A stretch of DNA of 64,000 nucleotides from Symmachiella dynata (GTDB lineage: Bacteria > Planctomycetota > Planctomycetia > Planctomycetales > Planctomycetaceae): NCBI RefSeq assembly GCF_007747995.1, contig NZ_CP036276.1, positions 5,880,001 to 5,944,000 of the forward strand. The letters are read 5' to 3'. Each line of letters starts with the position of its first letter. Position 1 is the stretch's first letter. This document shows positions 5,503 to 23,150 of this stretch, piece after piece. The position numbers were made by a program, and so were the translations under genes. The notes under the pieces were generated by a model that saw only the letters and a list, made by a program, of their open reading frames with translations, ran no database searches and was not told the origin of the DNA.

Positions 5503-6117
5503 TTACCCTTCTGAGATCAATAATTTCATCCACCTTTTGGAGTGTGCATAATCGGCTTGGAAGGTACTCAGGGTTTCGCGAATTTCACCCAAGTTTGCTT
5601 CGAAGTCGGCATGCTTTTCCTCCAACTGCTGTAGGTGGTCGGTAACTCGTGAAGCGGCCGAGTTTGATTTCTGGCTATGGCGGGCCGGTTCCGGTGGTGG
5701 AGCCCAAGGATCGTCGGTATCAATTTGACGAACATGTCTTAACAATTCTTCTCGGACGAGCGGCTTAAACAAGACATCGACAAATCCCAGGTCGATTGAC
5801 TCCTGGAGCAAGTGCATATCTTTGCCTTGCAACTGGCTTTCGGTGGTCAATCTCGTCAGCAGAATGAATTCGGGCGGACTTGAATTGCCGTCATCGCTTA
5901 TGCGTTCGATTTGCATATTGGCTTTGAACAGATCGACTGCCGTCATTCCACCAACGAGCAAATCGGTGATGACAAGGCGGATGCGGTGGTCCCGTTTGAG
6001 AATTTTCAACGCATTTTCACCGGAGTCGGCCGCAATAACTTCGTGTCCGTGCGCCGATAACAATCGGTCCATGTTTCGTAGAACCAACGGAACGGTGTCG
6101 ACAACTAAGATGATCAT
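5503..6117 (-). CDS. Degenerate response-regulator receiver protein with coiled tail
   Basis: A 204-residue protein. Residues 1-125 form a receiver fold with the phosphoacceptor D52 (VITDLLV) and the conserved K118 (LFKPL). The acidic pair at the start is reduced to VVDT, so one of the two Mg2+-binding acids is missing. Residues 160-200 are rich in Glu, Gln and Leu and look helical or coiled. There is no DNA-binding domain, so it probably acts through protein contact. AAGGAAA precedes the ATG at a good distance. It is the last gene of the minus-strand signalling cluster downstream of the Tad locus, about 200 bases from the next receiver gene. Confidence 0.78.
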   Translation of the reverse strand: MIILVVDTVPLVLRNMDRLLSAHGHEVIAADSGENALKILKRDHRIRLVITDLLVGGMTAVDLFKANMQIERISDDGNSSPPEFILLTRLTTESQLQGKDMHLLQESIDLGFVDVLFKPLVREELLRHVRQIDTDDPWAPPPEPARHSQKSNSAASRVTDHLQQLEEKHADFEANLGEIRETLSTFQADYAHSKRWMKLLISEG

Positions 6118-6319
6118 TTCGTTTTCCTTAAACGCTAAGGCGATTTTTGAATAGAACTTGAACAGTCTGAGGGGCTGAAGATTGTTGGAGTCGTTCTCGC
6201 CATTCGCTCATACGTGTTGCGAGGCTATTTTTTTAGATCAGCATCAGCCGTTTGACTTGTCTTGCTGGACAAGTACGGAATCAATGCTGATTCTCGATCA
6301 GATTCTAAGGTTGAAACGG

Positions 6320-6745
6320 CTACGCGTTTTCTTCATTCGACACGCTGGTAGCCGTCTGACCGATTGTGCTTCTGGAAATACGCTGACAACGCCGTATCGT
6401 TTCGAGCAAGTGCATTTCGTTGAAGGGTTTGGTGATGTAGTCATCTGCTCCGGCGACGATTCCAGCGGCGCGTTCCGAAGGCATGGCTTTTGCAGAAACC
6501 ATGATGATAATTGCGTCCTTCAAGGTGAGGTTAGCCCGCAGGCGACGGCAGACTTCCAGCCCATCCATGCCGGGCATCATTACGTCCAACAGGATAATAT
6601 CCACCAGACACTCTTCGGCGATGCGAATGGCATCGTGCCCGTTTCGCGCATATTCGACTTCATAGTCATCCTCCAAAATCTCATAGAGAACGGCCAAATT
6701 GACAGGGTTGTCGTCGACGACCAATACTTTTTGTAGTTGATTCAT
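6320..6745 (-). CDS. Single-domain response regulator (CheY-like)
   Basis: A 141-residue stand-alone receiver. All key positions are present: acidic pair D11-D12, phosphoacceptor D54 (ILLDVMMP), the serine of MVSA, and K106 (ITKPFN). The C-terminal 25 residues are an unstructured tail. With no output domain it is expected to relay phosphate or to bind a partner. It starts 11 bases after the degenerate receiver gene that follows the PAS kinase, so kinase and two receivers form one operon. The kinase at 7119-8522 is the obvious partner, which is inference from position. Confidence 0.88.
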   Translation of the reverse strand: MNQLQKVLVVDDNPVNLAVLYEILEDDYEVEYARNGHDAIRIAEECLVDIILLDVMMPGMDGLEVCRRLRANLTLKDAIIIMVSAKAMPSERAAGIVAGADDYITKPFNEMHLLETIRRCQRISRSTIGQTATSVSNEENA

Positions 6746-6756
6746 GGGGGCCTAGC

Positions 6757-7125
6757 TCAAGCTCCAAAATTGGACATAGTGACTGGAAGGGACGATTCGA
6801 TAGAATTCGAGCACTGACAAACCGTGGTAAACGGATACAACCCGCGCAGCATCGCGTCGAGTTCAGTTTGTGCAGAGACCATCATGGCTTGACCGTGGGT
6901 CGAATCAGGATTGTTTTTTATCTGGTTGCAGAACTCGCAACCGTCCGGTCTGGGCATCACCACCTCCACGAACACAACGTCGGGCGAAAGTGACAACAGA
7001 CCGTGGTGCGTCTCGTTGGCCTCACCGACCGGACTCAATTCGTGCCGATCGGGGAAGGTTTCCTCGATGATCGTCAAATTCATGGGCGTGTCATCGACAG
7101 TCAAGATACGGTTTGCGGCTAGCAT
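6757..7125 (-). CDS. Receiver-like protein with Asp-to-Glu at the phosphosite
   Basis: A 122-residue receiver-like protein closest by eye to the receiver of the HD-GYP protein at 22101-23150. The acidic pair D11-D12 is kept, but the phosphoacceptor is Glu54 (VVFVEVVMP). The half that should contain the conserved Lys-Pro-Phe is replaced by an unrelated Cys/Ser-rich tail after residue 95. Glu at this site often mimics the phosphorylated state, so it could be a constitutively active partner or a decaying copy. GAGGA lies seven bases before the ATG. Its start overlaps the stop of the upstream kinase gene by seven bases, indicating translational coupling. Confidence 0.7.
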   Translation of the reverse strand: MLAANRILTVDDTPMNLTIIEETFPDRHELSPVGEANETHHGLLSLSPDVVFVEVVMPRPDGCEFCNQIKNNPDSTHGQAMMVSAQTELDAMLRGLYPFTTVCQCSNSIESSLPVTMSNFGA

Positions 7126-8522
7126 TTCAGTTCCTCATGAAGGTGAGACATCGGTTGGGCTTGCTGATAGGGGAACTCCGGTCCGTTCAACTCCGAGGCG
7201 GTTTGTGGGTTGGTCAGTTCATCCGTTGGTTGCGGGTTGTCGAAGGGGATCTCGATACTGACAACAGCGCCGCACGGCGTTCGGTTTTGGGCCCAAATGT
7301 TCCCGGCGTGTTGTTCGATGATCTCACGGCAGATCGCCAAACCGAGTCCCGTCCCGCCGGCGCCCGTATTCGTGCGGGTTGATTGCACAAACTTTTCAAA
7401 GATCTGTTCCAATTCCTCTTCGGCGATGCCCGGTCCCTGATCGGCGATTTGAATGATCAATCGCCGGCCATCACTCTCTAAGTCGACATCAATCCTTCCC
7501 TCGGGAGGCGAGACTTTGAGCGCATTGCCCAAAACATTCCGCACGACTTGCGAGAATTTGTCGCGATCCACACAAACGTCGGTCTCCCCTCCCCGGGTGT
7601 GTAGTTGAATCGAAACCTTGCGCTCCTCCGACATGGCGTGGAATTCCCGGATGACCTCACTAACAATCGTTGCCGAATCCCATTGCTGTTTGTCGAGATG
7701 GATGGTCCGCGATTCGAGTTTGGCTAAGTCCAGCAATTGATTGACGAGGTACAGCAAGGTGTTGCCGCAAGTTTCGATGTTTACGAAATACTCCGATAAC
7801 TTTTCGTGAGTCGCCTTTTCCATTCGCTGCACGCCGAACCGGGCAAAACTCAATATTCCGTGCAGCGGAGTTCGCAACTCGTGGGACATGTTTGCCAAAA
7901 ACTCTGACTTCGCTGCATTGGCCGACTCGGCAGCTTCGGTCGTACGTCGTAATTCCTCGGTCCGAATTTCGATCGTGGATTCCAAATGCGCATTTTGCGA
8001 TTCCAATGCCTTTTTGGTCAGCAACAGTTGGTCGGCGTACCGTTGTAGTTCGCGTCGAGAATGTTCTTGATGGGTCTGATCCTCGATAATCACCATGCAT
8101 TCCCGTTCACGCGTCTCCGTAATTCCTCGTAAGGCCACCCGCACCGGCAACGTGTTCCCCTCATGGTCGGTCGCGAGCGCTTCAATGCGCGGCCGCGAAT
8201 GCTCGACCGCGGGATTGTTGACACATGCGCTGATCCGTTGTGAAAAATCGTTGCCGTCCGTGGATTGAACCAACGTTGCGACATTCTTAGGAAACGGCGC
8301 GTTAGCTCCGTAGCCGAATAATTGCGATGCCATCCGATTCCAGGACCGTATTTTGCCCGTTGAACCGACGCGCAACGTCGCATAACCGACGGCATCCTCA
8401 AGGGTTCGCAGCCGAATCGATGCATCGCTGAGGCGCCGCGCGATGACCGCGCGGTGCCGTTCCTGTAGTCCGATTGCAATGACGGCGATTGCTGCGGAGA
8501 TGAGGATCAAATTTATGGTCAT
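7119..8522 (-). CDS. PAS-domain hybrid-type sensor histidine kinase (no receiver)
   Basis: A 467-residue membrane-anchored kinase. Order: one TM helix (residues 3-20), PAS domain (about 38-150), a coiled coil (155-205), HisKA with phosphorylatable H214 (NMSHELRTPL), then the ATPase domain with N-box N333 (LGNALK), G1 DQGPGI (361-366), F-box FEKF and G2 GGTGLGL (389-395). No periplasmic domain is present, so the signal is likely cytoplasmic or redox/ligand based through the PAS. The ATG at 8522 is preferred; a GTG lies at 8537. Two receiver genes follow in the same operon. It lies downstream of tadG on the same strand and may regulate the Tad system, which is inference. Confidence 0.9.
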   Translation of the reverse strand: MTINLILISAAIAVIAIGLQERHRAVIARRLSDASIRLRTLEDAVGYATLRVGSTGKIRSWNRMASQLFGYGANAPFPKNVATLVQSTDGNDFSQRISACVNNPAVEHSRPRIEALATDHEGNTLPVRVALRGITETRERECMVIIEDQTHQEHSRRELQRYADQLLLTKKALESQNAHLESTIEIRTEELRRTTEAAESANAAKSEFLANMSHELRTPLHGILSFARFGVQRMEKATHEKLSEYFVNIETCGNTLLYLVNQLLDLAKLESRTIHLDKQQWDSATIVSEVIREFHAMSEERKVSIQLHTRGGETDVCVDRDKFSQVVRNVLGNALKVSPPEGRIDVDLESDGRRLIIQIADQGPGIAEEELEQIFEKFVQSTRTNTGAGGTGLGLAICREIIEQHAGNIWAQNRTPCGAVVSIEIPFDNPQPTDELTNPQTASELNGPEFPYQQAQPMSHLHEELKC

Positions 8523-8584
8523 ACCAACGGTTTCCACTGAGTTACGATTCCAGCACAGTGACGATTTCAGCTTTGAACTATTTT

Positions 8585-10492: not shown

Positions 10493-10969
10493 TCAATTGA
10501 CAATATGCATCGTGGTTGCGGAATTCAGGTCAAAAGAGCCCCACGGCAATAAACCCGGCACCAAGGACTGATGTCGATAGTCGACTTCGACGCGCACACG
10601 GTCGCGCGGCGAGTTATCTCCATCCGGCCAGGAAATGCGGATATTGACTTGTTCATCATCCATGGTTGCGGTGGCGATAGCGGCAGCCGCCACTAGATCG
10701 GAATCATCACCGGCGGTCCCTTCAAATGCTTCCGGTCCCCAGGTCCCCACGGCCTGCGGGGCCAAGGAACCGTGCAGAATGGTTTCCCGCGCAACACGTC
10801 GTGAGACCTCGGCTAATGCGTTGTAACGAACAGAGGCAACGCCCAAATCGAGCATCGCGAAGAGAATGAGCAACAGGACCGGCAGTACGATTGCACTTTC
10901 CACGATCGTCGCCCCGCGCCGGCGGGCGGTGTGACTCGTTGGTCGTTTGGGTGTTCGTAACTTGTGCAT
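10493..10969 (-). CDS. tadE: TadE-like pseudopilin (second copy)
   Basis: A 158-residue protein. A basic leader of 19 residues ends in RRRG and is followed by ATIVESAIVLPVLLLILFAM, the class III prepilin form with Glu at +5 after the cleavage glycine. TadE and TadF are minor pseudopilins processed by a TadV/CpaA peptidase; no peptidase gene is in this window. The start at 10969 gives a normal leader, whereas the frame opening further upstream overlaps the other tadE gene. It begins 13 bases after that gene. Whether this copy is TadE or TadF cannot be decided here. Confidence 0.85.
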   Translation of the reverse strand: MHKLRTPKRPTSHTARRRGATIVESAIVLPVLLLILFAMLDLGVASVRYNALAEVSRRVARETILHGSLAPQAVGTWGPEAFEGTAGDDSDLVAAAAIATATMDDEQVNIRISWPDGDNSPRDRVRVEVDYRHQSLVPGLLPWGSFDLNSATTMHIVN

Positions 10970-10982
10970 GACTGAGGACTCA

Positions 10983-11468
10983 CTAGCGGAACTGGCAATA
11001 TTCCGCATGTTTGAACAAGTTGGTTTCTGAGGGTAAAGCCGGCCAGTCCACGACCGTGCGAAACGGATAGGAGACCTCGACGGCAATGTGCATGATGCCA
11101 TCCCCGTCGACGTTCGTCGATAAGTCGTATTCCATATCCGACTCGTCAAAATCCGGAATATTCGACATCTCATTGATCACCGCTTGTCGAACGGTCGCCT
11201 CCCAAGAGGGACGCGTGTAATTGCTGAATTGACGGACAGCGCCGGTTTCTGCTCCCGTGCGAGCAGCATTGGCTACAACCTGGTGAAAGTGGACGATGCG
11301 ACCGAAATCACAAGTGCCCAGCGCGATCAGCAACAAAATCGGCAGCGCTATCGCGAATTCAGTCGCCACAGTCCCCCGCGCATGGCGGCCCCGTTGCCGG
11401 TCAGTACGCGCGGACACAAAACGGCGTCGAATTGTGGGTGGGCAATGTTTGTAGAATCGTGAATGCAT
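10983..11468 (-). CDS. tadE: TadE-like pseudopilin (first copy)
   Basis: A 161-residue protein with a basic leader of about 31 residues ending in RHARG and then TVATEFAIALPILLLIALGT, again Glu at +5 after the likely cleavage glycine. The hydrophobic helix and the conserved DFGRIVHFHQVVANAARTGA region match the TadE family. It would be a minor pilin-like component of the Tad machine in the inner membrane or periplasm. Gene order tadC-tadE-tadE-tadG is that of Tad loci in other bacteria. It begins three bases after the tadC stop, so it is probably translationally coupled. Confidence 0.87.
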   Translation of the reverse strand: MHSRFYKHCPPTIRRRFVSARTDRQRGRHARGTVATEFAIALPILLLIALGTCDFGRIVHFHQVVANAARTGAETGAVRQFSNYTRPSWEATVRQAVINEMSNIPDFDESDMEYDLSTNVDGDGIMHIAVEVSYPFRTVVDWPALPSETNLFKHAEYCQFR

Positions 11469-11471
11469 GGT

Positions 11472-12407
11472 TTATTGGTTAATAAAGGCTTCTTGAATTT
11501 GAATGGCAGCTGGACCGACCAAAATGACAAAGATTGCGGGAAAGATGAGCAACAACGTCGGAATGAGAATTTTGACCGAGGCCTTTTGCGCCTTTTCTTC
11601 GGCCGCCTGTTCACGTTTTGTCCGCAGCATATCTGCATGGTTTCGAAGAGCGTCCACGATATTTGAGCCGAACCGCTGAGCCTCGCGAATGAATGTGCTG
11701 AGTGTGCGGGCCCCGTCAAAATCGGTTCGTACTGCAAAGCGTTTGAGGGCTTGATCCACCGTGGCGCCCAATTCCATATCCCGCTGAATGATGGCCAATT
11801 CAGCGGCCAGTTCCGGGTGTGCGAGGAGCAGTTCGTCACTCACTTGGTGAATGGTTTGTTGAAGGCTTAAGCCGCCCCCTAAACAGACCGTCATCAAGTC
11901 AATAAAATCAGGCAGCGATTTTTGCAGCAACACATGTTGCCGAGCGATAGCACGGTCGAGCCAAAATCCAGGCACGAGAAAACCGACAGCGCCCGCTGCG
12001 ACGGCGGCTGGGATCATCCATTGTGCGGAAATGTAGCCTGATAATTCCAACGGAATCATCGCCGCAGCCGGAATCGCAGTGAATAACAGCTTCGCAATAT
12101 AGTAGCGTTGAATTGCCGCTTGATCGTAGATGCCCGCTTTGGTGAGACGATGTTGCAATCCCGAACGTGATGAGGCATGCGAAGGATTGAGCTGCTGCAA
12201 TTCTTCAACGAATCTGGACAGCACGCCATCACTCTCTTCATCGTCATCGCCCTTTGCCGTCGCAATGGCCATGCTCGATGGCTCGAGCTCTTTGATTCGA
12301 TTACGAACTTTGACATCGTATGGATTCGAGCGGACGAGGAGAGCGTAAGTGGCGATAGCCACGATACCGAAAATAATGTACGGAATGCTCACGAGAGAAC
12401 CAGCCAT
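11472..12407 (-). CDS. tadC: Type II secretion F-domain protein TadC
   Basis: A 311-residue integral membrane protein with a T2SSF domain in the C-terminal half (DFIDLMTVCLGGGLSLQQTI, then the LGATVDQALKRF and FIREAQRFGSNIVDAL segments) and hydrophobic segments at the N-terminus, around residue 120-150 and at the C-terminus. It forms part of the inner-membrane platform of the Tad apparatus together with TadB. The ATG at 12407 was chosen over a longer reading because it begins directly with the first membrane helix and lies 13 bases after the tadB stop. Confidence 0.92.
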   Translation of the reverse strand: MAGSLVSIPYIIFGIVAIATYALLVRSNPYDVKVRNRIKELEPSSMAIATAKGDDDEESDGVLSRFVEELQQLNPSHASSRSGLQHRLTKAGIYDQAAIQRYYIAKLLFTAIPAAAMIPLELSGYISAQWMIPAAVAAGAVGFLVPGFWLDRAIARQHVLLQKSLPDFIDLMTVCLGGGLSLQQTIHQVSDELLLAHPELAAELAIIQRDMELGATVDQALKRFAVRTDFDGARTLSTFIREAQRFGSNIVDALRNHADMLRTKREQAAEEKAQKASVKILIPTLLLIFPAIFVILVGPAAIQIQEAFINQ

Positions 12408-12420
12408 AACGGGGGACCCT

Positions 12421-13362
12421 TTAATATTCAAAATTGACGATTTTCCGAATCCACAACGCGCCAACAAGTTGTGCTGCAGCTGTGGCGACCAATAACATCG
12501 GACGATCGATCAAAAATTGGGCGTAGTCTGGGGCTGTGAGGATGATTCCGATAAATGCCGCCACTGGCAAAATGATCAACACAACCGCCTGCGTTCGGCC
12601 TTCGCCGGTGAGCGCACGCACCCGTTCTTTTAACTTTAACCGTTTGCGAATCATTCCCGACAGGTTGTCGAGCAGTTCAATGAGATCGCCACCGGAGCGG
12701 GATTGAACCAAAATTGCGACAACAAAGATTTGCAGTTCCATAATCCCCGCGCGCTGGGCGAGTTGACGTAATGCCGACTCGCGACTGATGCCTAGATTTT
12801 GCTTTTCGTGACAACGAGCGAACTCCGTCGAAATCGGCGGCTCAAAGTCGGTGGCAACAATTTGCAAGGCGGAGGGAATTGTTTGACCAGCTTTGACCGC
12901 CCGGCTGATCATCGAAAACGCTTCAGGGAGTTGGCGGGACATCAATTTTTGCCGCCGCTGTGTGCAGACCATCAACACGCCGAATGGTGACAACATTCCG
13001 GCAATCCCCAAAGCCGCGCCCAACCACCAAAACCACAAGGACCCGACGGAGGCAGCCACAACACCACATGCGAGACAGCACAACAGAAACATCGTATTGG
13101 ACCATGTGCTGCCGGTCAGTTCGATTTGCTGCCGCAGCCATTCGCTCCAGGTTTGACGCATGAAGTCCCGGTTTTGTAGCCGTTTGATATCCTTAAACAA
13201 CGAGACGGTTTGATGGCTATCAGGTTGCTTTGATATTCCTTTGACGCGTTCGCGCACGGCGATTCGGTAGCGGAATAACCACTCGTAATACAAAACACCG
13301 AGGCTCAGCGCGAAGGCTGCAGATGCGGCAAGTGTCAGTGCGATAAATACTGTTTGGTACAT
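12421..13362 (-). CDS. tadB: Type II secretion F-domain protein TadB
   Basis: A 313-residue platform protein. It has two N-terminal hydrophobic stretches, the T2SSF domain (QLPEAFSMISRAVKAGQTIP, then SGGDLIELLDNLSGMIRKR) and two C-terminal helices. TadB pairs with TadC and contacts the CpaF ATPase. Its ATG overlaps the stop codon of cpaF (TGATG), so the two are translationally coupled, as expected for subunits needed in fixed ratio. Confidence 0.93.
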   Translation of the reverse strand: MYQTVFIALTLAASAAFALSLGVLYYEWLFRYRIAVRERVKGISKQPDSHQTVSLFKDIKRLQNRDFMRQTWSEWLRQQIELTGSTWSNTMFLLCCLACGVVAASVGSLWFWWLGAALGIAGMLSPFGVLMVCTQRRQKLMSRQLPEAFSMISRAVKAGQTIPSALQIVATDFEPPISTEFARCHEKQNLGISRESALRQLAQRAGIMELQIFVVAILVQSRSGGDLIELLDNLSGMIRKRLKLKERVRALTGEGRTQAVVLIILPVAAFIGIILTAPDYAQFLIDRPMLLVATAAAQLVGALWIRKIVNFEY

Positions 13363-14711
13363 CAGAATCCTCGCAGATGGTCGACACGGTCGAATTCGTA
13401 ATCACCCCGCTCAAAGATTGAACGAGGCAGATCCATGCCTGCGGCCCGAAATCGTTCGAGGCATTCCGGGATAATCCCGGTTGTTTCAAACTGACCGACA
13501 ACATGGTTTTGATCATCGACGCCAGTTTGCCGAAAGGTGAAAATGTCATGCATGCTGACACTCTCTCCTTGCAGTCCGGTTACTTCAGAGACTTGAATAA
13601 TTTTGCGCTGGCCACCTGGCAAACGCGCGACTTGTACGACGATCTGGATGGCAGATGCAATTTGACGATGGATGAACCACATCGGCAATTCCGGTGCGGC
13701 CATTCCGACCAGCATTTCAAGTCGGCTCAGGGCGTCACGAGCTTCATTGGCATGAATCGTTGACATCCCCCCTTCGTGTCCGGTGTTCATAGCTTGCAAC
13801 ATGTCAAACGCCTCAGCACCGCGGCATTCACCCACAATGATCCGGTCCGGTCGCATTCGCAGCGCATTGCGGAGCAATTCGCGGGAGTTCACTTCGCCCT
13901 TGCCTTCCAGGTTGGACTGCCGCGTCTCCATACGTGCCACATGCGGTTGTTGCAATTGAAGTTCCGCCGCGTCTTCAATGGTCACCACGCGCTCATGCGC
14001 AGGGATAAATCCGGACAGCGCATTAAGCAACGTTGTCTTACCGCTCCCTGTGCCCCCCGAAACGAGAATGCTCATGCGGGCTTTGACGCATGCCGTCAGA
14101 AAATCCAACATCTGAGGAGATGCCGATTGACGGGCCACGAGGTCGCTCATAGAAATCGGCCGCGCCGAAAAACGCCGAATGGAAACGAGCGCACCATCCA
14201 ATGCCAAGGGTTTGATCACAGCATTGAGCCGACTGCCGTCCGGCAATCGTGCATCGACCATGGGACTCGCTTCATCAATCCGCCGCCCCACGCGTCCGGC
14301 AATCCGCTGCACAATTTCCACCAGGTGATCCAAATCGCGGAATTCGACGGAGGTCTCCTCCAGATTTCCGCGACGCTCAACAAAAACACAATGCGGCCCA
14401 TTGATCAGAATGTCGGACACCGTGGGGTCGTGCATCAGCGGTTCAAGCGGTCCCAGCCCCATCATGTCGTCCAGCAATTCGTCGATCAATCGATTGCGAT
14501 CCGCCTGGCTGATTAAATCAGAATGCAGGCCGCACAATTGCTCAGCTCCACGGCGCAACTCATCCCGCAGAATGTGCGGATCCACCGAACGCAGCACGGA
14601 AAAATCCATGTCGCTGATCAGTTGTTCGTGAAGCTCGGCCTTCAATTCCTGAAATCGAGGGTCGCGATTCGCATCGCTGGCCGATGTGATTATTGGAGAC
14701 GCTTCCAGCAT
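13362..14711 (-). CDS. cpaF: Tad/Flp secretion ATPase CpaF (TadA)
   Basis: A 449-residue cytoplasmic hexameric ATPase of the type II/IV secretion family that powers Tad pilus assembly. Walker A is GGTGSGKTT at residues 219-227, the Asp box is [10 protein letters not shown], the Walker B glutamate is E295 in IIVGECRG, and the His box is GGMSTIHAN. The N-terminal 100 residues match the CpaF helical domain. Length is normal. It follows the cpaE-like gene after 52 bases and overlaps tadB. All catalytic residues are present, so the machine is probably active even though the CpaE-like partner is degenerate. Confidence 0.95.
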
Positions 14712-14763
14712 GTTTCCAAGTCCTAATTAACAGAGGGGAAAGTTATTTGAATGCAGCCATTTC

Positions 14764-15972
14764 TCATTTGGCAAAACTCAGTGAGTTCATCGCGACGGAC
14801 AATGCCGCCTTGACCGAACTCGGCCGTTTGGGCGGCTTCTGCGGTACGGGTGCTTCGTGTCGCCTGATTAAAGTCTCTGCAAATCCTGCGATCGCTTGGC
14901 TGATTTTTGTATTGGGGCATTCGCAGACCAATGGGTTCCCCACATTCACCGCTCGCAGCGTCGAGACCGGGTCATCGGGGATCCGATGAATGTCCGTGAC
15001 CTGCAACACTTTGGTGATAGAACTTGTCGCCAGTTCGGTGGAATGCCCCGACCCCAGTACGACAACGTGAATGTTTTCTCGCGGTAGGCGATTTTGTGTC
15101 ATCAAATCCATGTGTTGTTTGGCGCGACGCAGCGAGACAACATCGGGTCGCATCGTCATCACAATGTCGTCACTGTCAGCAAAGGCACGCAGTTGTTCGG
15201 CGTGTTGGAGGTCCTCGGAATTAACAATCACAAAATCATGCAACCGCTGGGCCAAGCCGATGATTTGGTGGCACACTTGCGGTCTGACGCTCCGCATGTC
15301 GATGAACGTATTCGGCCCCGCCAATAGCCGGATCCCCGAGTCGTGAGTCGTCAACGCTTGCTCAAATAGCGCTTGATCAATTGTGCCTTGCTGCTTCAAC
15401 AGATCGATGATCGTGTGCCGCGGCGACAACTGTAACAGCATCGTCAGATCGCCATCCCGCATTTGAAGATCCAAAAGCGCGCACGAACGTGACTGCTTGG
15501 CAACAATCGCAGCCAGATTGACCGACAACAAACTCGCATCACGAGCGGAGTAACAGGGCAGGATGGAAATCACACGACCGCGAATTTCCCGGTGCTTTCG
15601 CTGCAACTTCAAGCGGGTGATTGAATTGGCTAACTCCTCATTCACATTATCATTCGCAGCGATAAAGTCACTCGCTCCCGAGCGAATCGCATTGAGCACC
15701 GTACCGTGATTGTCGATCTTGGAAACCACCACAATTGTGGCGTCATCGTGGGTCGTCGTCCGGAGCCGCTTTAACAATTCCAAGTATTCGGTTTCCAACT
15801 GATCAACCGCAAATAACAAGATCCCATCAAAAGCTGTTAGCGACTTGAGTTGCGGATCCAAGGATTCAATTCGGGTTGTATGAGAGGCAGGACATTCGAG
15901 GCCTAGATCTTGGAGCGAGTCGTGAACAACTTTCACCAAACGATCAGAGTCGGTAATGATCCATATATCCAT
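14764..15972 (-). CDS. cpaE: CpaE/TadZ-like protein with degenerate P-loop
   Basis: A 402-residue protein. Residues 1-120 look like an atypical receiver domain without a phosphoacceptor pattern, as in CpaE/TadZ. Residues 133-370 follow the MinD/ParA-like fold order (VISILP, SVNLAAIVAKQ, CALLDLQMRDGDLTMLL, DFVIVNSE). The usual Walker A glycines and lysine are absent: the position reads PCYSARDASL (about 139-148). It therefore likely cannot hydrolyse ATP in the standard way. TadZ/CpaE directs Tad machinery to the cell pole. ATG at 15972 was chosen (AAGGT upstream); ATGs further upstream exist. First gene of the Tad operon. Confidence 0.82.
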   Translation of the reverse strand: MDIWIITDSDRLVKVVHDSLQDLGLECPASHTTRIESLDPQLKSLTAFDGILLFAVDQLETEYLELLKRLRTTTHDDATIVVVSKIDNHGTVLNAIRSGASDFIAANDNVNEELANSITRLKLQRKHREIRGRVISILPCYSARDASLLSVNLAAIVAKQSRSCALLDLQMRDGDLTMLLQLSPRHTIIDLLKQQGTIDQALFEQALTTHDSGIRLLAGPNTFIDMRSVRPQVCHQIIGLAQRLHDFVIVNSEDLQHAEQLRAFADSDDIVMTMRPDVVSLRRAKQHMDLMTQNRLPRENIHVVVLGSGHSTELATSSITKVLQVTDIHRIPDDPVSTLRAVNVGNPLVCECPNTKISQAIAGFAETLIRRHEAPVPQKPPKRPSSVKAALSVAMNSLSFAK

Positions 15973-17382
15973 TGCATTGACCTTCATAAACAACGTTTTC
16001 GCGGAGCCGGCCGCTAAGAACATGGCACCGCTCGCCTGCGGGCGTCGTGCTATGTCGTACCCTTTCGGCAGAGGGCAATCCCAAACGTTTACGATCCAGG
16101 CATCTTCAATTCATGGACACAACGTATCTCATGCCTGCCAACTTCAACTTTCTTGGTCGTCTTGAATGAACTTCATGTTTTTGCCCTCACCGCATTTCTC
16201 TTTCAGTCAAGTCCCCCCTCAGTCAAATCACTGGATCGTCTGATCAAGTGAGAGATCGTCGTCTTGTGATTTAGGGAATCGTATAGGAGCAACGGAATGC
16301 TGCTGAAATGCGAACGTGTCGACGAAATCCTGTGACGAACTTACAAAAAACGTAGTTCGAAAAATTTCAACCGGCGTCCATTTGGTCGAAAGACTGGGGT
16401 TTCCCTTAGGCTTTTCGCAGCGCGCTCAGAGAAGCTCAGAACGGTTTTTATTCGCCCGCTCGTTCGGCAAAAAACTGTTGTCGCAAAGATGGTTACAGAT
16501 ATTTTTTCGCGAACGCGCTACGAATGATGGAGCAAGCATCACGGGAAAGAGAGGGTCGCGAGACATCGTTAACACGACATCGCTCGATCATGCGAAAGCA
16601 CGAGGAGCGCACGCTTGAGGTCATCGAGAACACGAGTGACGCACACCAATGCAACCAGCGAAAGGGGTCTAGTTTCGCTGGTGACGTGGAGCAGTTTTGA
16701 AGGTCATCATGAATACTCAGAAACTGCTAACAGACCTAGTGTTTGCCGAAATTACGTTGACTGATTAACCAACAGGAAGACTCGTAAAACACGGAACCAG
16801 CCACACATTGAGCCAGCACGTTTCTCGCATCGTGGCAGGGCTTCAACCCTTGCCAATTCAGCTTATAACCCGCATTCCCCTTGAATTGTTAGTCTCTTGT
16901 TGACCGAAGCATTCGCCCTTGCTTGAGATCATCTCCCCTGGATGACAAAATAATTCCGAAAGAACATCTAGATGAGCATCTCTGTCACACACGCGCATTA
17001 CTCTGATCGTCCAGGCATATCTATCTCATCCTGCCGGGGTATTCACTGAGTATTTTTGATCAAGAGGGGGTCAGACGAGGGCACTATGCAAGTTGCATAG
17101 CGATATGTCTGCATCGCTTGGCTACGCCGGCGGTCACCCCCACGATCACTCGGTCCCCCCTGGTCGGTTGACTGTGACTGGTAAAACGTTTTGGGAGTTT
17201 AGACATCAGAAAATACTATTTCCAGCAGTTTTCGGTAGCACCTCAGTAACAACATCGGAACGAGGCAGCGTCAACTTGTTCCCAGCCATGGTTCGCTATT
17301 TGCGTTCCTTGGAGTGTTGAATTCGGGCCAGCGAGGATGTATTTCGTGAGTGAACGCATGGAGCTCGAATTTTAGTTGAAGG
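15973..17382. other. Long noncoding region between Tad operon and PAS kinase
   Basis: About 1.4 kb between divergently transcribed units. Frames at 16316-16618 and 17093-17320 have no family resemblance and unusual composition, so they are left out. No Flp pilin gene was found. The region must hold the promoters of the Tad operon and of the kinase gene, but I could not pick a convincing -35/-10 pair. Confidence 0.5.
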
Positions 17383-18957
17383 ATGTTGGGAGACATGACG
17401 CAACCCGACGAATCTTTTGATTCGCATTTTGGGACACACCACCCATCTTTGACGGAAACCGATGCACCTGCGCGCATAGCCCTTGACGCCTCGTTAGCTG
17501 CCGTGATCACCATTAACGAGCAAGGCGTGATTGAGTCCGTCAATGCTGCAGCAAATCGACTGTTCGGCTCTGGGGAGGCCGATATGGTCGGTCAGCACCT
17601 GCGCAATTTGATGACCTCGCCGGACCGGGAAAACTGTGCCGAATATTTAGCCAAATATCTCGCAACCGGACGCAAGAATTTCATCGGCAGAGGGCGGGAG
17701 GTCATGGGGCAACGCCTGGACGGCACGATATTTTCGATGCTGTTGTCCGTTAATGAGGTTTGGTTGGGAGAGCAACGTAAGTTCACCGCTGTGGCCTGCG
17801 ACATCACGAACCTAGGCAAGGCGATTGGAAAACTTGAAGAAACCGAATCGCGCTCGCGGGCGATTTTGCAATCAGCAGCCGACGCAGTGATCACAATCGA
17901 TGAACGGGGCGAAATTGAATCGCTCAATGCCACCGCCGAAAACCTGTTCGGCTATTCACACAACGAACTGATTGGTCAGAACATATCGCTGCTCATGCCG
18001 TCGCCATACCGTGAGGACCATGACAACTACATCAATGCCTATCTTCGTACCGGTCAACGGAAAATTCTTGGTATCAGTCGCGATGTCGTTGGTTGTCGGA
18101 AAGATGGAACTACGTTTCCCATGGAATTGGCCGTCAGTGAGGCGAAACCAGGCGGTCAGCGACATTTTACGGCAATCATCCGAGACATCACCAGCCGCAA
18201 AGCAGCGGAACGGCAATTGAAGTACTTTGCTTCGCAACTTCAGGAACGCAATCTGGAATTGAGCCGCAGCAATGAAGAGCTGGAACGCTTTACCTATGCA
18301 GTCTCCCACGATTTGAAAAGTCCATTGGTCACGATCAAAGGTTTTGTCGGCCGGTTGCAGCGCCACGTGGAGGCCGGCGAATTCAATGAGATTGAGGATT
18401 ACCTGTCGCGGATCAGTAACGCCGCTGATCGCATGGGATCTCTGCTGGACAATTTGTTGACGTATTCACGCGTGGGCCGTGTCGTCAATCCTCACGAAGA
18501 CATCCCACTGGCCGATCTGGCGCGGGAAGTGATCGAACTCTGCGATATTTCAATCCAAGACCGCGGAATGCAGGTCACCCTCAATGAGCAATTGCCGGTG
18601 ATCCGAGGCGACCGTTTTCGGCTGGTCGAGTTGCTGCAAAACCTGGTGGAAAATTCCGTGAAATTCACAAAGGATGTCCCCAACCCGCAACTCGAGATCG
18701 GCACGTTTACGAAATGGCAACAAACGGTTTGTTATGTGCGCGACAATGGAATTGGAATCGAACAGCCTCAGCAGCAACACATTTTCAATTTGTTTGAACA
18801 ATTGAATCGTGAAGTGCCAGGGTCAGGCATTGGACTGGCCATGGCAAAACGTATCGTGGAGTCCCACGGTGGAAGGATCTGGGTGGAGTCCGACGGAATT
18901 GGCAGTGGGTGTACGATGTGCTTCACATTGCCAGCGGCTGAAAACTCTTCCTCTTAA
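17383..18957 (+). CDS. Tandem-PAS histidine kinase with FixL-like haem motif
   Basis: A 524-residue soluble kinase. PAS1 spans about 33-150 and PAS2 about 158-275. HisKA carries H309 (FTYAVSHDLKSP, phytochrome-like type), and the ATPase domain has NLVENSVKF, DNGIGI and GSGIGLAMAK. PAS2 reads PSPYREDHDNYI followed by ILGISRDVVG, matching the FixL haem PAS with its haem-ligand His and distal Arg at the same 20-residue spacing (H213, R233). PAS1 keeps R105 but has C85 in place of His. It could thus sense O2 or another gas; that is inference. An alternative start at 17395 is possible. An Rcp1-type receiver gene follows after 18 bases. Confidence 0.88.
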   Translation: MLGDMTQPDESFDSHFGTHHPSLTETDAPARIALDASLAAVITINEQGVIESVNAAANRLFGSGEADMVGQHLRNLMTSPDRENCAEYLAKYLATGRKNFIGRGREVMGQRLDGTIFSMLLSVNEVWLGEQRKFTAVACDITNLGKAIGKLEETESRSRAILQSAADAVITIDERGEIESLNATAENLFGYSHNELIGQNISLLMPSPYREDHDNYINAYLRTGQRKILGISRDVVGCRKDGTTFPMELAVSEAKPGGQRHFTAIIRDITSRKAAERQLKYFASQLQERNLELSRSNEELERFTYAVSHDLKSPLVTIKGFVGRLQRHVEAGEFNEIEDYLSRISNAADRMGSLLDNLLTYSRVGRVVNPHEDIPLADLAREVIELCDISIQDRGMQVTLNEQLPVIRGDRFRLVELLQNLVENSVKFTKDVPNPQLEIGTFTKWQQTVCYVRDNGIGIEQPQQQHIFNLFEQLNREVPGSGIGLAMAKRIVESHGGRIWVESDGIGSGCTMCFTLPAAENSSS

Positions 18958-18975: not shown

Positions 18976-19470
18976 ATGCAGCTTGAACGAACGCGGATTT
19001 TGTTGGTCGAAGACGACATGGATCACGCCAAACTAATCAAGGAGTGTTTTGAAGATCAACGTTTAACAAGTCACATCACGCATCTGCCGGACGGTCAAGC
19101 GGCACTGGATTATTTGTTGCATCAAGGTGAGTACTCTGAAAACGATCCAAACTCAAACCCGGACTTGATACTCCTCGACCTGCGTCTGCGACGCGTTGAT
19201 GGATTGAAAGTCTTGCGAACGATTAAGACGACTGAGGGGATCAAACGCATTCCTGTGATCATCCTCACGACCTCCAGTGCGGATCGGGACCTCTGCGAAG
19301 CCTATGACCTGCACGCCAACAGCTATTTAGTCAAGCCGATTGGATTTGATGATTTCTGCAGATTAATCCAAGATCTAGAAACCTACTGGACCAACTGGAA
19401 TCGACAGCCAACTTATGTGACACAGGGAGCAAGGAGTGGCGACGAACAAAACACGAGTGTTGCTCGTTGA
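18976..19470 (+). CDS. Rcp1-type single-domain response regulator
   Basis: A 164-residue receiver of the type that partners phytochrome-like kinases. It has the VEDD pair (D13-D14), the longer loop before the phosphosite (HQGEYSENDPNSNPDLILLDLRL), phosphoacceptor D68 and K120 in YLVKPIGFDDF. There is no output domain. It starts 18 bases after the tandem-PAS kinase, whose phytochrome-like HisKA fits this receiver class. The last 35 bases overlap the start of the next gene in another frame. Probably a phosphorelay intermediate; target unknown. Confidence 0.92.
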   Translation: MQLERTRILLVEDDMDHAKLIKECFEDQRLTSHITHLPDGQAALDYLLHQGEYSENDPNSNPDLILLDLRLRRVDGLKVLRTIKTTEGIKRIPVIILTTSSADRDLCEAYDLHANSYLVKPIGFDDFCRLIQDLETYWTNWNRQPTYVTQGARSGDEQNTSVAR

Positions 19471-20584
19471 GGACGACGATAATCACGCGTTTTTGATTCA
19501 GTCAGCCTTCACGGATCATAAACGGCAATGGCAGATAGAAATCGCCAAGACAATCGAGGAGGCGCGCCAAAATCTTAACGAGTCGCCACCGGAGTTGGTC
19601 ATCGTCGATTTCGTCCTCCCGGACGGACGGGGAACCGAACTGCTGCCGGCATCGCGTACCTCGATGTGCGTACCGTATATCTTGATGACGAGCCAAGGAA
19701 ACGAGGCGGTCGCTGTTGAAGCGATCAAAGGGGGCGCGCTGGACTACGTCGTCAAGTCCGAGTTCTCACTCGCGGAAATGCCGCGTACCGCCGAAAGGGT
19801 GCTTAGAGAATGGGAATTGATTGTCGAACGCCAACGGGCCAAGGACCGCGAAAATGAACTCTTCTCGCTGCTCGCACACGCCGATCGCAAAAACGCGATG
19901 GGAGAAATGGCCACCGCACTGGCCCACGAAGTGAACCAACCGCTGGCGGCAATCGCAAACTATGCCGGAACGTGCCTGACTGTGCTTCCCCAAAACGAGG
20001 AGCGGTACGACGAACTTCGGGATGCGCTATTACGGATTGACCAACAGGTCCGCCGCGCCGGAGACATCATTCGTCGGTTGAAATGCTACGTGTCCAAAAG
20101 TGTTCCGGAAACCTCGCTGGTCGGCTTAAACCATTTGATCCTTGAGGTTGCTAACCTCGTTCGCGTCGCCTTGAAATCGCACAATGTAGAACTTGAGTTG
20201 CAGCTGGATGACAGCCTCCCCCAGATACGTGTTGATACTGTCCAAATTCAACAAGTGATCGTGAATCTAGTACAAAACGCCCTAGAATCCATGGTAGACA
20301 TGGAACCGCCAGAGCGCATCGTCCGCGTCATCACGACATCGAACTCCGACAACGTGAGCGTCGATATTTCCGATTGTGGCCGCGGCATTCCCCACGAATT
20401 GTCCGAGAAATTGTTCGAGCCGCATTTTACGACCAAATCGCAAGGCTTGGGGATGGGCCTAACCATCAGCCGCAGGATCATCGAGGATCACGACGGACAA
20501 CTCACATGCAGCGCCAACCCCAAGCACGGCTCCACGTTTCGCTTCAGCCTGCCCAAAGGTGAGCAAACGGCTCTGGACGTCTAA
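19436..20584 (+). CDS. Receiver - FixL-type histidine kinase hybrid
   Basis: A 382-residue cytoplasmic protein with a receiver at the N-terminus (residues 6-125: D13-D15, phosphoacceptor D58 in LVIVDFVLPD, K107 in YVVKS), a short helical linker and a kinase core. The H-box is ATALAHEVNQPLAAI with H164, the HisKA form of FixL/NtrB-like enzymes, then QNALES, DCGRGIP and GLGMGL. A kinase controlled by its own N-terminal receiver can take phosphate from another kinase, here perhaps the tandem-PAS kinase. The start is GTG, supported by GGGAG six bases upstream, and lies inside the end of the previous receiver gene. Confidence 0.9.
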   Translation: MATNKTRVLLVEDDDNHAFLIQSAFTDHKRQWQIEIAKTIEEARQNLNESPPELVIVDFVLPDGRGTELLPASRTSMCVPYILMTSQGNEAVAVEAIKGGALDYVVKSEFSLAEMPRTAERVLREWELIVERQRAKDRENELFSLLAHADRKNAMGEMATALAHEVNQPLAAIANYAGTCLTVLPQNEERYDELRDALLRIDQQVRRAGDIIRRLKCYVSKSVPETSLVGLNHLILEVANLVRVALKSHNVELELQLDDSLPQIRVDTVQIQQVIVNLVQNALESMVDMEPPERIVRVITTSNSDNVSVDISDCGRGIPHELSEKLFEPHFTTKSQGLGMGLTISRRIIEDHDGQLTCSANPKHGSTFRFSLPKGEQTALDV

Positions 20585-20727: not shown

Positions 20728-20766
20728 AAAAAAGCTCCCCCGAAATCATTTCTGGGAAGCTTTTTT
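20728..20766. terminator. Bidirectional terminator between kinase and fixJ-type gene
   Basis: AAAAAAGCTCCC pairs with GGGAAGCTTTTTT (one mismatch) around a loop of about a dozen bases. A and T runs flank the stem on both sides, so it can serve the plus-strand kinase operon and the minus-strand regulator gene. Confidence 0.85.
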
Positions 20767-20885: not shown

Positions 20886-21521
20886 CTACGAACTTTCCCT
20901 GATGTCAGAATTGTCTAGCAAAAAATGGTCAGAACAAAGCCGCACTAATTGCACCACAGATTCAACCCCCATTTTTCTGGTCACGTTGCTGCGATGCACT
21001 TCCACCGTCTTAATCGAAATCCCCAGCTGTCCCGCAATTTGTTTGGTCAATAGCCCCTCGACAACCAGCGTTAATACTTCACGTTCTCGCGGAGTCAGCT
21101 TAGTAAGACGGAACTCCAAATCTTGACGACGCAGATGTTCGCTACGTTGCAACTGATCTCTCTCAAGCGCTTCATGCACGCGGGCAAGAAACAGCTTCCG
21201 GTCCAGCGGTTTTTCAATGAAATCCACCGCCCCCGACCGCATGGCCTGTGTGGCATCGAGGACTTCGCCATGTCCCGTCATGATGATAAATGGATGCCGA
21301 CATCCTCTTTCAACCAGTTGATCATGCAACTCGATGCCGGTCATATCGGGCAACCGTAAATCGAGAACCAGACAACCAGGTTTGTCCGCGTCATACTCTG
21401 AGAGCAGATTTTTTGGCGAGGGATAGGCATCGACGCATAACTGTTCCTCTCGCAGCATCCACTCGAGTGACTCTCGAACGGATTGATCATCATCCACGAG
21501 GATTACGGTTTGATTATTCAT
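20886..21521 (-). CDS. FixJ-type response regulator (receiver + LuxR HTH)
   Basis: A 211-residue transcription factor. The receiver has D10-D12, phosphoacceptor D54 (CLVLDLRLPD), T/G positions MTGHG and K104 (FIEKPLD). The C-terminal 60 residues are a LuxR/NarL helix-turn-helix starting LTPREREVL with the recognition helix ISIKTVEVHRSNVTRKM. This is the FixJ/TtrR/StyR group, normally driven by FixL-like kinases. Such kinases lie just across the convergent terminator at 17.4-20.6 kb. ATG at 21521 follows GGAAG at about eight bases; an upstream alternative start is weaker. A paired palindrome at 21870-21904 upstream is a candidate binding site. Confidence 0.93.
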   Translation of the reverse strand: MNNQTVILVDDDQSVRESLEWMLREEQLCVDAYPSPKNLLSEYDADKPGCLVLDLRLPDMTGIELHDQLVERGCRHPFIIMTGHGEVLDATQAMRSGAVDFIEKPLDRKLFLARVHEALERDQLQRSEHLRRQDLEFRLTKLTPREREVLTLVVEGLLTKQIAGQLGISIKTVEVHRSNVTRKMGVESVVQLVRLCSDHFLLDNSDIRESS

Positions 21522-22100
21522 GACCGATGCTTCCAGCTCACGTGCCAATTGTTTGCTGATACCACATTCCGCATTCAGTGAACAAGTGCTATTTCAAATC
21601 CTTTCGATGAATCATTCACTGGACAATACGAAATACCGATTCTGGCCCGCGGTTGCTACCTCAACTCCTATCGACATTTTCAATTCATCACATCGCCGGT
21701 TTATTCTCGCAAAGAGCCATGACCAGATCGAACGTCGCTCAAGAGAACCCTGTATTCACCGTAATTTTCGGTCTTCTGTCGCCGCCTAAATCCCATGCAA
21801 TTAAAGCACATAGGCAATTTGAATTCACTCCTTCTGCTTCAAGCAACCACGTGACAAAACACTGTCGGCTAAGGGAATCCCTAGGTGCATAAGGGATTCC
21901 CTAACTTTGCGTCATGTTTTCAAACTGCGAAGGTTTTACGGCCTAGATTTGATGGCCCGGGCTTGCTTCCCAAAACCTGATTGGCAGTGGTTGATGAGTG
22001 AAACAGTCTCAAACACCCAACAAACTTTCTTTATACGTCTCACTCAAAGAGGAAATCCCCCATTTTGACGGGTCTGACATCGATGAACCGAGGAATCCGC
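21522..22100. other. Divergent intergenic region with regulatory palindromes
   Basis: About 580 bases between the fixJ-type gene and the HD-GYP gene. It holds the paired AGGGA-N-TCCCT sites listed separately and otherwise no frame or repeat that I can support. It should contain promoters in both directions. Confidence 0.5.
21870..21904. promoter_or_regulatory. Paired palindromic operator candidate
   Basis: TAAGGGAATCCCTA (21870-21883) and TAAGGGATTCCCTA (21890-21903) are near-perfect palindromes, mutually reverse-complementary, with centres 20 bases (two helical turns) apart. They lie about 350 bases before the fixJ-type start and 200 bases before the HD-GYP start. A dimeric regulator binding twice on one DNA face is the natural reading. 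Confidence 0.65.
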
Positions 22101-23150
22101 ATGCCACCGGTAAATCGTATTCTGGCGGTCGACGATAATCCGATTAATCTAGAGATCATCAAGGAGTTATTCGCAGCAGAATTCGAACTCCAATTAGTCG
22201 ACAACGGGAAGGATGCTCTCAAGGTTGCGCAAGAGTGTCCACCGGATGTGGTGTTGTTGGACGTCATGATGCCTGACCTGAATGGCTATGAAGTCTGCAG
22301 CCATTTCAAGTCCGACCCCACTCTTCGCCACAGCCAAGTGATTATGGTCTCTGCCAACACCGAACTCCAAGACCGACTGCAAGGCTATCAAACCGGCGCC
22401 GACGACTACGTCACGCGGCCGTTTAATCCGGATGAACTCTATGCCAAGGTCTGCGTCAATTTACGTAACAAATCGATTTTTGACGATGCCCGAACACAAA
22501 TCGAAGACTTCAGCGGGGCGACCGCTGAGGTACTGGAACTTCTTTCCAATCTTGACCAAACCGAATCGGGCAAACATCTCGATCGAATTCGCATCTACTC
22601 CCGTCTGTTGGCCAGCGAACTGCGCCAAGATTCCGCCTGCTCAGAAATCGACGAGGCCTTTCTCCGAAAACTAGAGCAAGCCAGCCCTTTGCACGACGTC
22701 GGAAAAATTGCCTTGCCCGATGAACTGTTAAACAAAAAGGAGAAATTGACCTCCGAAGAACGCTCGCAACTAGAACGCCATACACTGATCGGGCATGACA
22801 TTCTCAAAGGTCTGGTTCTGAAATGCCCCCGAACGGATTTCTTTTCGATGGCAGCAGAGATCGCCCGCTGGCATCACGAATCATTTGACGGCAGCGGATA
22901 TCCTGACGGATTGCGGAAAGGTGAAATCCCCCTGGCTGCGCGCATCGTCAAGCTTGTCGATGTATTTGATGCATTGACCACGCACGAACCAGGTGCCGCC
23001 CCTCCCGACCCGGTTGATGTTCGAGACTATTTAACCGGTCAGGTTGCATCGAAATTCGATCCCCGTCTGCTCGATGCGATGTTGAACTGTTTTGACGACT
23101 TACGCACCGTTTGCCAGATGTATCAAACCGAAAAATCCGCGAACCTGTGA
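22101..23150 (+). CDS. Receiver - HD-GYP c-di-GMP phosphodiesterase
   Basis: A 349-residue protein. Receiver: D11-D12, D54 (VVLLDVMMP), but Arg106 replaces the conserved Lys (YVTRPFN). The HD-GYP part has H198-D199 (SPLHDVGKIALP), H227 and H232 in the HTLIGHDIL segment, the HHE at 258-260 and GSGYPDGL at 265-272, so the metal and GYP residues are present. It should hydrolyse cyclic di-GMP under receiver control. The C-terminus after DALT is divergent and short. The start at 22101 follows GAGGA; longer frames begin with TTG. The ECF sigma gene starts about 75 bases after its stop, suggesting an operon. Confidence 0.92.
   Translation: MPPVNRILAVDDNPINLEIIKELFAAEFELQLVDNGKDALKVAQECPPDVVLLDVMMPDLNGYEVCSHFKSDPTLRHSQVIMVSANTELQDRLQGYQTGADDYVTRPFNPDELYAKVCVNLRNKSIFDDARTQIEDFSGATAEVLELLSNLDQTESGKHLDRIRIYSRLLASELRQDSACSEIDEAFLRKLEQASPLHDVGKIALPDELLNKKEKLTSEERSQLERHTLIGHDILKGLVLKCPRTDFFSMAAEIARWHHESFDGSGYPDGLRKGEIPLAARIVKLVDVFDALTTHEPGAAPPDPVDVRDYLTGQVASKFDPRLLDAMLNCFDDLRTVCQMYQTEKSANL

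Follow-up and report, generated by a model that had tools for sequence, protein, structure and literature searches.

Does the tandem-PAS sensor kinase of the planctomycete Symmachiella dynata bind heme in the manner of FixL, the textbook heme oxygen sensor, and through which proteins would it pass its signal on? The question arises from a stretch of 64,000 nucleotides (contig NZ_CP036276.1, positions 5,880,001 to 5,944,000; hereafter the window), in which positions 17383-18957 (+) form a single open reading frame (ORF) of 524 amino acids with the Pfam domain order PAS1-PAS2-HisKA-HATPase_c. A preliminary description of this DNA had read the ORF as a tandem-PAS kinase with FixL-type heme residues, namely His213 and Arg233 in PAS2 and Arg105 with a Cys (Cys85) in PAS1. 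The ORF list and Pfam bear out its coordinates, strand and frame, and the residues read from the translation bear out its numbering. On the basis of sequence, modelling and analogy, we consider a two-tier heme-PAS phosphorelay, leading from sensing by PAS2 to a FixJ-type regulator, a somewhat probable reading of the locus.

The evidence for heme comes from PAS2. In a search of 177,635 distinct PDB sequences, all 14 matches with E < 1e-10 were FixL, DosP or 10jx, which is the heme PAS of FG214 according to its PDB title, and the next match followed at 4.3e-05. The FG214 domain is treated in a preprint (PMC13060918). The match of PAS2 to RmFixL (phmmer, E = 5.5e-35) lies far beyond chance, and the phmmer alignments set its HDNYI...ILGISR segment on the His/Arg stretch of both RmFixL and Bradyrhizobium FixL (BjFixL). 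His213 occupies the column of the proximal His200 in helix F-alpha and Arg233 that of the distal Arg220, as had been proposed, while Ile228, Leu229, Leu249 and Val251 provide the hydrophobic cover. By our alignments, Ile228, Leu249 and Val251 are the counterparts of heme-covering residues in SmFixL, whose pocket residue roles follow PMC10765370. When compared with 83 family domains having both His and Arg, PAS2 carries the commonest residue at Asp214, Tyr216, Tyr220, Ile228, Gly230, Ile231, Met247, Leu249, Val251 and Phe262; its exceptions are Ala219 (Arg in 44/83), Lys227 (Arg in 48, Lys in 27), Leu229 (Ile in 78), Ser232 (Gly in 79) and Ala264 (Gly in 77). The SmFixL counterpart of Ala219 is Arg200, variants of which autoxidise (PMC10765370).

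An alignment with FixL structures, which the preliminary description had proposed as a check, gives the same assignment. An AlphaFold2 model of the PAS tandem, built from an alignment of 25 FixL-type proteins from named genomes, has a predicted local distance difference test score (pLDDT) of 91.3 as a heme-free model. VIA-align superposed model residues 142..257 on residues 154..269 of O2-bound BjFixL (1dp6) without gaps, with a root-mean-square deviation of 1.4 Å over 116 residues and a Z of 20.4. Because the two segments are equal in length and all residues are aligned, the offset is a constant 12, which places His213 (model residue 188) on His200 and Arg233 (model residue 208) on Arg220 by residue register. 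The whole tandem also superposes on the PAS-A/PAS-B structure of BjFixL (8js5; 243 aligned residues, Z 19.8). From sequence and model, PAS2 very probably binds heme. A six-coordinate heme of the DosP type was considered as well and is unlikely, since PAS2 has Ile231 at what we take to be the position of the axial Met95 of DosP.

PAS1 also has FixL heme domains as its closest relatives (RmFixL, phmmer, E = 7.6e-21). Its alignment to FixL agrees with the earlier assignment of Cys85 to the column of the ligand His and with the retention of Arg105. The surrounding pocket is altered: in FixL columns, PAS1 has Phe100 at Ile215, Arg103 at Ile218, Ala86 at Asp201 and Ser118 at Pro233. An ortholog from another genus of the same family (G431, locus L303) provides the reference state. 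Its 3.8-kb contig holds the sensor, the lone receiver and the start of the receiver protein before the contig ends, with identities to the window of 59% over 496 amino acids for the PAS-PAS-kinase, 53% for the lone receiver and 59% for the first 99 residues of the receiver protein. Both of its PAS domains carry the His, the Arg and both distal Ile residues. Conservation was scored over 81 family rows, from which the copies of the window itself were excluded, at the 35 positions that at least 85% of the rows share: PAS1 departs at nine positions, PAS2 at five, and each PAS of the ortholog at none. The PAS1 branch, with a length of 1.85 in a tree built from 89 PAS rows (PAS2 0.57, median 0.35), belongs to the five terminal branches that were marked as long; PAS1 takes no resolved position in this tree, owing to few columns and long branches. 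Identity to the ortholog is 61/117 for PAS1 and 81/125 for PAS2, a merely marginal difference (p 0.05). As judged from these alignments, PAS1 is a FixL-type domain with a decayed pocket, and Cys85 is a derived loss rather than a second kind of ligand, because both PAS domains of the ortholog have the FixL pocket intact. The His/Cys contrast itself is that of a decayed copy.

The preliminary description had, by implication, set Cys85 beside His213 as a parallel heme site. In its fuller form, this explanation holds that both PAS domains bind a cofactor and that Cys85 is a thiolate heme ligand or redox thiol, with gas and redox state read separately. The exact position of Cys85 at the ligand column, the retained Arg105 and the replacement of His by Cys rather than by a random residue are at least suggestive; the replaced distal Ile residues, the changes of Asp to Ala and Pro to Ser, the number of departures, the long branch and the His of the ortholog nevertheless make it highly improbable, and Cys85 was rejected as a FixL-type ligand. 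A screen of the fetched domains with Tyr or Phe, Gly and Arg at the Tyr207, Gly217 and Arg220 columns points in the same direction. The ligand column held 189 His, 6 Cys, 1 Tyr and 1 Gln, in rows that repeat proteins across overlapping loci, and all six Cys rows are this gene in overlapping loci, so that the fetched set contains no Cys and Arg combination in any other protein. Of the gas or redox sensing cascade first suggested, the FixL-type heme PAS2 and the cascade in a planctomycete are retained, and the second heme site is abandoned.

It could also be argued that neither PAS binds heme, the FixL-like pair sensing another small molecule or serving as a dimer scaffold. Heme PAS of cluster 3 are known and numerous. 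For this cluster, Xing et al. (2023, PMC10468136) report an invariable His in about 60%, propose other specificities for the remainder, and mention non-heme ligands for PAS A of the related PASK; the S. dynata genome itself holds another PAS type in which the His is present and the Arg absent. The ortholog, however, retains all 35 conserved positions in both PAS domains, and we regard this explanation as quite unlikely.

The kinase that would receive the signal of PAS2 differs from that of FixL. Searched alone, the kinase core of the sensor finds bacteriophytochromes and one unnamed histidine kinase as its best PDB matches (about 1e-29), and the whole sensor scores 298.4 bits against the FixL model NF041777, below the curated cut-off of 850. 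In the sensor, therefore, the predicted heme PAS is not joined to a kinase core of FixL type, the core of the sensor being nearer to bacteriophytochromes. The FixL-type core is found in the receiver-kinase downstream, whose top hit in the PDB is the FixL portion of 4gcz (1.9e-52, residues 129-377); by this match, the receiver-headed kinase of the window carries FixL's own kinase core. LvrB matches the same protein over residues 4-373 (2.8e-31), and its receiver-DHp-CA layout, with Asp and His present, is that of a Rec-controlled histidine kinase. Against the LvrB model NF047466 it reaches 146.8 bits over nearly the full length, below the cut-off of 500. The FixJ-type gene has the receiver and LuxR architecture and scores 192 bits against NF006900, below the cut-off of 255. 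Both this regulator and the receiver-kinase hybrid had been reported beside the sensor, and Pfam, model scores and PDB matches show them to be real; the Rcp1-like lone receiver between sensor and hybrid had gone unmentioned. With a FixL-like heme domain in the sensor and a FixL-type core in the receiver-kinase, FixL's parts thus appear to be split across two proteins. The catalytic and acceptor residues are present throughout the set (His309, Asp68, Asp58 and His164, and Asp63; Table 1). A scan for consensus promoters and terminators gave no excess over shuffles, and its list lacks the inverted repeat at 20728-20766.

The relay that we infer, from heme and ligand through the phosphotransfer steps to the direction of the response and the target genes, would run as follows. 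In PAS2, His213 would be the ligand of a b-type heme and Arg233 would, as in FixL, be placed to hold O2 when it binds; O2 or oxidation of the heme would alter the activity of the attached kinase. PAS1, presumably a former heme PAS of the tandem that has lost ligand and pocket, may now act as a structural or dimerising domain. Phosphate would then pass from His309 to Asp68 of the Rcp1-like receiver, to Asp58 of the receiver-kinase, or to both. According to two reports (PMC5863495, PMC13269768), LvrA phosphorylates LvrB, and phosphorylation of the receiver activates the LvrB kinase. Given the LvrB-like layout and the FixL core, receiver phosphorylation may, by analogy, turn on the FixL-type kinase core (His164), which would phosphorylate the FixJ-type regulator and change transcription.

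Table 1. Features of the sensor locus, in window coordinates
Feature	Position	Strand	Details
Sensor histidine kinase, PAS1-PAS2-HisKA-HATPase	17383..18957	+	524 amino acids; phospho-acceptor His309 in SHDLKSPL
PAS1, residues 28-144	17464..17814	+	FixL-type, decayed pocket; Cys85 codon 17635-17637; Arg105 kept
PAS2, residues 155-279	17845..18219	+	Predicted FixL-type heme PAS; His213 codon 18019-18021; Arg233 codon 18079-18081
PAS2 pocket residues			Ile228, Leu229, Ile231, Met247, Leu249, Val251, Phe262
Single-domain receiver, Rcp1/RcpA-like	18976..19470	+	164 amino acids; phospho-acceptor Asp68; start 18 bases past the sensor stop
Receiver-histidine kinase	19436..20584	+	382 amino acids, GTG start as listed; Asp58, His164; 35-base overlap with the end of the receiver gene
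Inverted repeat flanked by A/T runs	20728..20766	.	Likely bidirectional terminator between convergent genes; -19.1 kcal/mol when folded as RNA, 4 bases of flank included on each side
FixJ/StyR-type response regulator	20886..21548	-	Receiver and LuxR DNA-binding domain; Asp63 counted from the listed TTG start

The recurrence of this gene set was assessed in two sets of genomes. The class set comprised 397 genomes with four candidates scored in each and yielded 35 places with a FixL-type core in 28 genomes. The phylum sample comprised 392 genomes with three candidates each, from which 58 stretches were fetched (31 matching from the receiver end of the model, 27 from later); 49/58 were scored (29 receiver-headed, 20 not), and the nine others, where no FixL-type core was called, were left out of scoring. 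The places include close relatives and are thus non-independent, and some stretches end with the contig. A pair was counted where a window-type sensor kinase of at least 300 amino acids had a lone receiver of at most 260 amino acids within 300 bases on the same strand. Local profiles placed a receiver in front of the FixL-type core at 11/35 class-set places. The sensor with adjoining lone receiver accompanies 5/11 receiver-headed cores versus 0/24 others in the class set, and 7/29 versus 0/20 in the phylum set, or 12/40 versus 0/44 when pooled (Fisher 5e-05). With sensor and lone receiver anywhere in the stretch, the counts are 14/40 versus 0/44 (7e-06). All four parts occur together at 8/40 places in five genera and in more than one gene order (window, L083, L208, L209, L218, L336, L342 and L346; the genomes are that of the window, G325, three of genus g56, two of g62, and G629). 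L336, L342 and L346 have all four genes on the same strand, with the sensor first, then the receiver, the receiver-kinase and the FixJ-type gene.

The FixJ-type partner is less constant. A receiver-LuxR gene is present in the stretch at 11/11 receiver-headed places versus 16/24 without the receiver in the class set, and at 7/29 versus 16/20 in the phylum set, where many receiver-headed kinases end in a further receiver. At phylum level, therefore, a FixJ-type gene is not the rule beside receiver-headed kinases. These counts bear on the explanation that PAS2 binds heme while the receiver-kinase and the FixJ-type regulator form a separate pathway, adjoining the sensor and its Rcp1-like receiver by chance. 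FixL-type kinases often have a FixJ-type gene nearby in any case (32/44 places without a receiver), the FixJ-type gene in the window lies on the opposite strand with a likely terminator between, and locus L090 has a window-type kinase and lone receiver without the rest, in a stretch cut by the contig end. The receiver and receiver-kinase genes nevertheless overlap as listed, and the joint recurrence of four parts across genera and in several gene orders makes a chance arrangement rather unlikely.

Several observations weigh against the two-tier heme relay that we favor. In PAS2, Ala stands at the column of the propionate-binding Arg200 of SmFixL and Lys at that of His214 of BjFixL, and five or more departures from the family-conserved positions, as in PAS2, occur in just 9/81 family rows. 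The FixJ-type gene is convergent and lies beyond the likely terminator, and therefore outside the sensor operon. Pooled over both sets, a FixJ-type gene is rarer by receiver-headed cores (18/40) than by receiver-less ones (32/44). The FixL His/Arg pair is found in no sensor PAS of the seven other four-part places: the sensor PAS of L083, L208, L209, L342 and L346 lack it, and no sensor PAS was called at L218 and L336. Among the best 80 of 572 relatives in named genomes, mostly proteobacterial sequences, a receiver-headed FixL-type kinase occurs in four; the sensor with lone receiver occurs in 0/80 and thus beside none of these four (0/4). Finally, co-location of genes is no proof of phosphotransfer, and close relatives are among the places. 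Since the seven other four-part places are without the FixL pair, the relay is not tied to heme; as read from these loci, what recurs is the relay, and heme as its input is a choice of the window's lineage.

The whole sensor has a match at E <= 1e-72 in six of 170 genomes of the family, its own included, and a relative of the PAS pair occurs at E <= 1e-25 in 176/397 genomes of the class. His and Arg at the FixL spacing are a family trait, present in 83/179 distinct PAS sequences of at least 80 amino acids in the fetched loci. The two residues alone were dropped as a test for heme, since they can also occur together in a PAS type whose pocket is different, seen in L084 and L090; a stricter screen also required the Asp, Tyr or Phe, and the Gly. 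Complete FixL-type PAS domains number five in G416, five plus one incomplete in G417, four each in G319, G039 and G099, and two in several others. In G319, G416 and G417, a window-type kinase, a lone receiver and a receiver-kinase-receiver protein come after the array, in the gene order of the window though with the other kinase core; in G417, an in-frame TAG lies between the array and its kinase. Single-chain arrays of four or five His/Arg FixL-type PAS are located at L366 473-3220 (five complete domains), L367 7570-10671 (five, and an incomplete one ahead of the in-frame TAG), L202 6743-9091, and L267 and L269 913-3339. Such array proteins may be multi-heme sensors. A second FixL His/Arg PAS is encoded in the S. 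dynata genome itself (G000:C1:5372616-5373038; L211 5439-6995), in a receiver-PAS-kinase adjoining a lone receiver, and a proteobacterial kinase ORF (Rhodospirillales bacterium, L144 7227-8768) has two complete FixL-type PAS in tandem.

The locus resembles several known systems in part. It shares with FixL-FixJ of Bradyrhizobium and Sinorhizobium a PAS tandem whose second domain is of heme type, the His/Arg pair and distal hydrophobic residues, together with a FixL-type kinase core and a FixJ-type regulator; in contrast, its heme PAS and FixL-type core lie on separate proteins with receivers between them, its PAS1 is a decayed FixL-type PAS, and its sensor falls well below the FixL model cut-off. 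As in LvrA-LvrB of Leptospira, a receiver-DHp-CA kinase, here with a full-length LvrB match, is encoded together with a PAS kinase upstream of it, whereas the window adds the lone Rcp1-like receiver and the FixJ-type regulator and stays below the LvrB model cut-off; LvrA is a hybrid kinase, which the window sensor is not. The bacteriophytochrome-like core directly followed by an Rcp1-like receiver recalls the phytochrome-Rcp1/RcpA pairs, but the input is a FixL-type PAS and not a bilin-binding photosensory module. With PAS cluster 3 of Xing et al., the domains share a FixL/DosP-like PAS, and both retention of the His (PAS2) and its loss (PAS1) are described; the loss in the window differs in falling inside a tandem whose ortholog keeps both, and the likeness is one of features. 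Rec-controlled kinases, Rcp1-like receivers and FixJ are likewise known already. A literature search, with most subscription papers outside its reach, turned up neither tandem FixL-type heme PAS nor planctomycete sensors of this kind, and no case of FixL's sensor and kinase being divided by a receiver tier.

Other genes of the window and genome were also recorded. At 5503-8537 (-), a further PAS-kinase with the same core type is followed by three receiver ORFs, and beyond the FixJ-type gene, 22065-23150 (+) encodes a receiver with an HD domain (Response_reg and HD_5). The genes at 10493-16023 (-), which point away from the sensor operon, are presumably those of a Tad/Flp-like pilus operon; no Pfam family was found for 14764-16023 within this cluster. 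In the S. dynata genome, the best CcoN match (187 bits, under the cut-off of 583) and a single Crp-type match have no bearing on the case.

The role of a vicinal PAS and the number of hemes that a sensor needs are hard to test. The planctomycete sensors form a natural matched set, with two complete pockets in G431, one in the window and four or five in relatives, and the arrays of G319, G416 and G417 front the same kinase type with its lone receiver. The gene set also indicates that a receiver tier can separate the sensor from the FixL-type kinase core, allowing different sensors to feed into a single kind of output regulator; relatives whose sensor PAS are not of heme type offer a precedent. 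We tentatively envisage a planctomycete two-tier FixLJ system, in which arrays of two to five FixL-type heme PAS, each pocket intact, in a single chain would act through a phytochrome-type kinase on a lone receiver and a receiver-headed kinase, and from there on a FixJ-type regulator. If this proves true, the oxygen dose response would be tuned by the length of the array and by naturally occurring losses of individual hemes, such as the change of His to Cys in the window, and the added tier of receivers would open the same FixJ output to other sensors.
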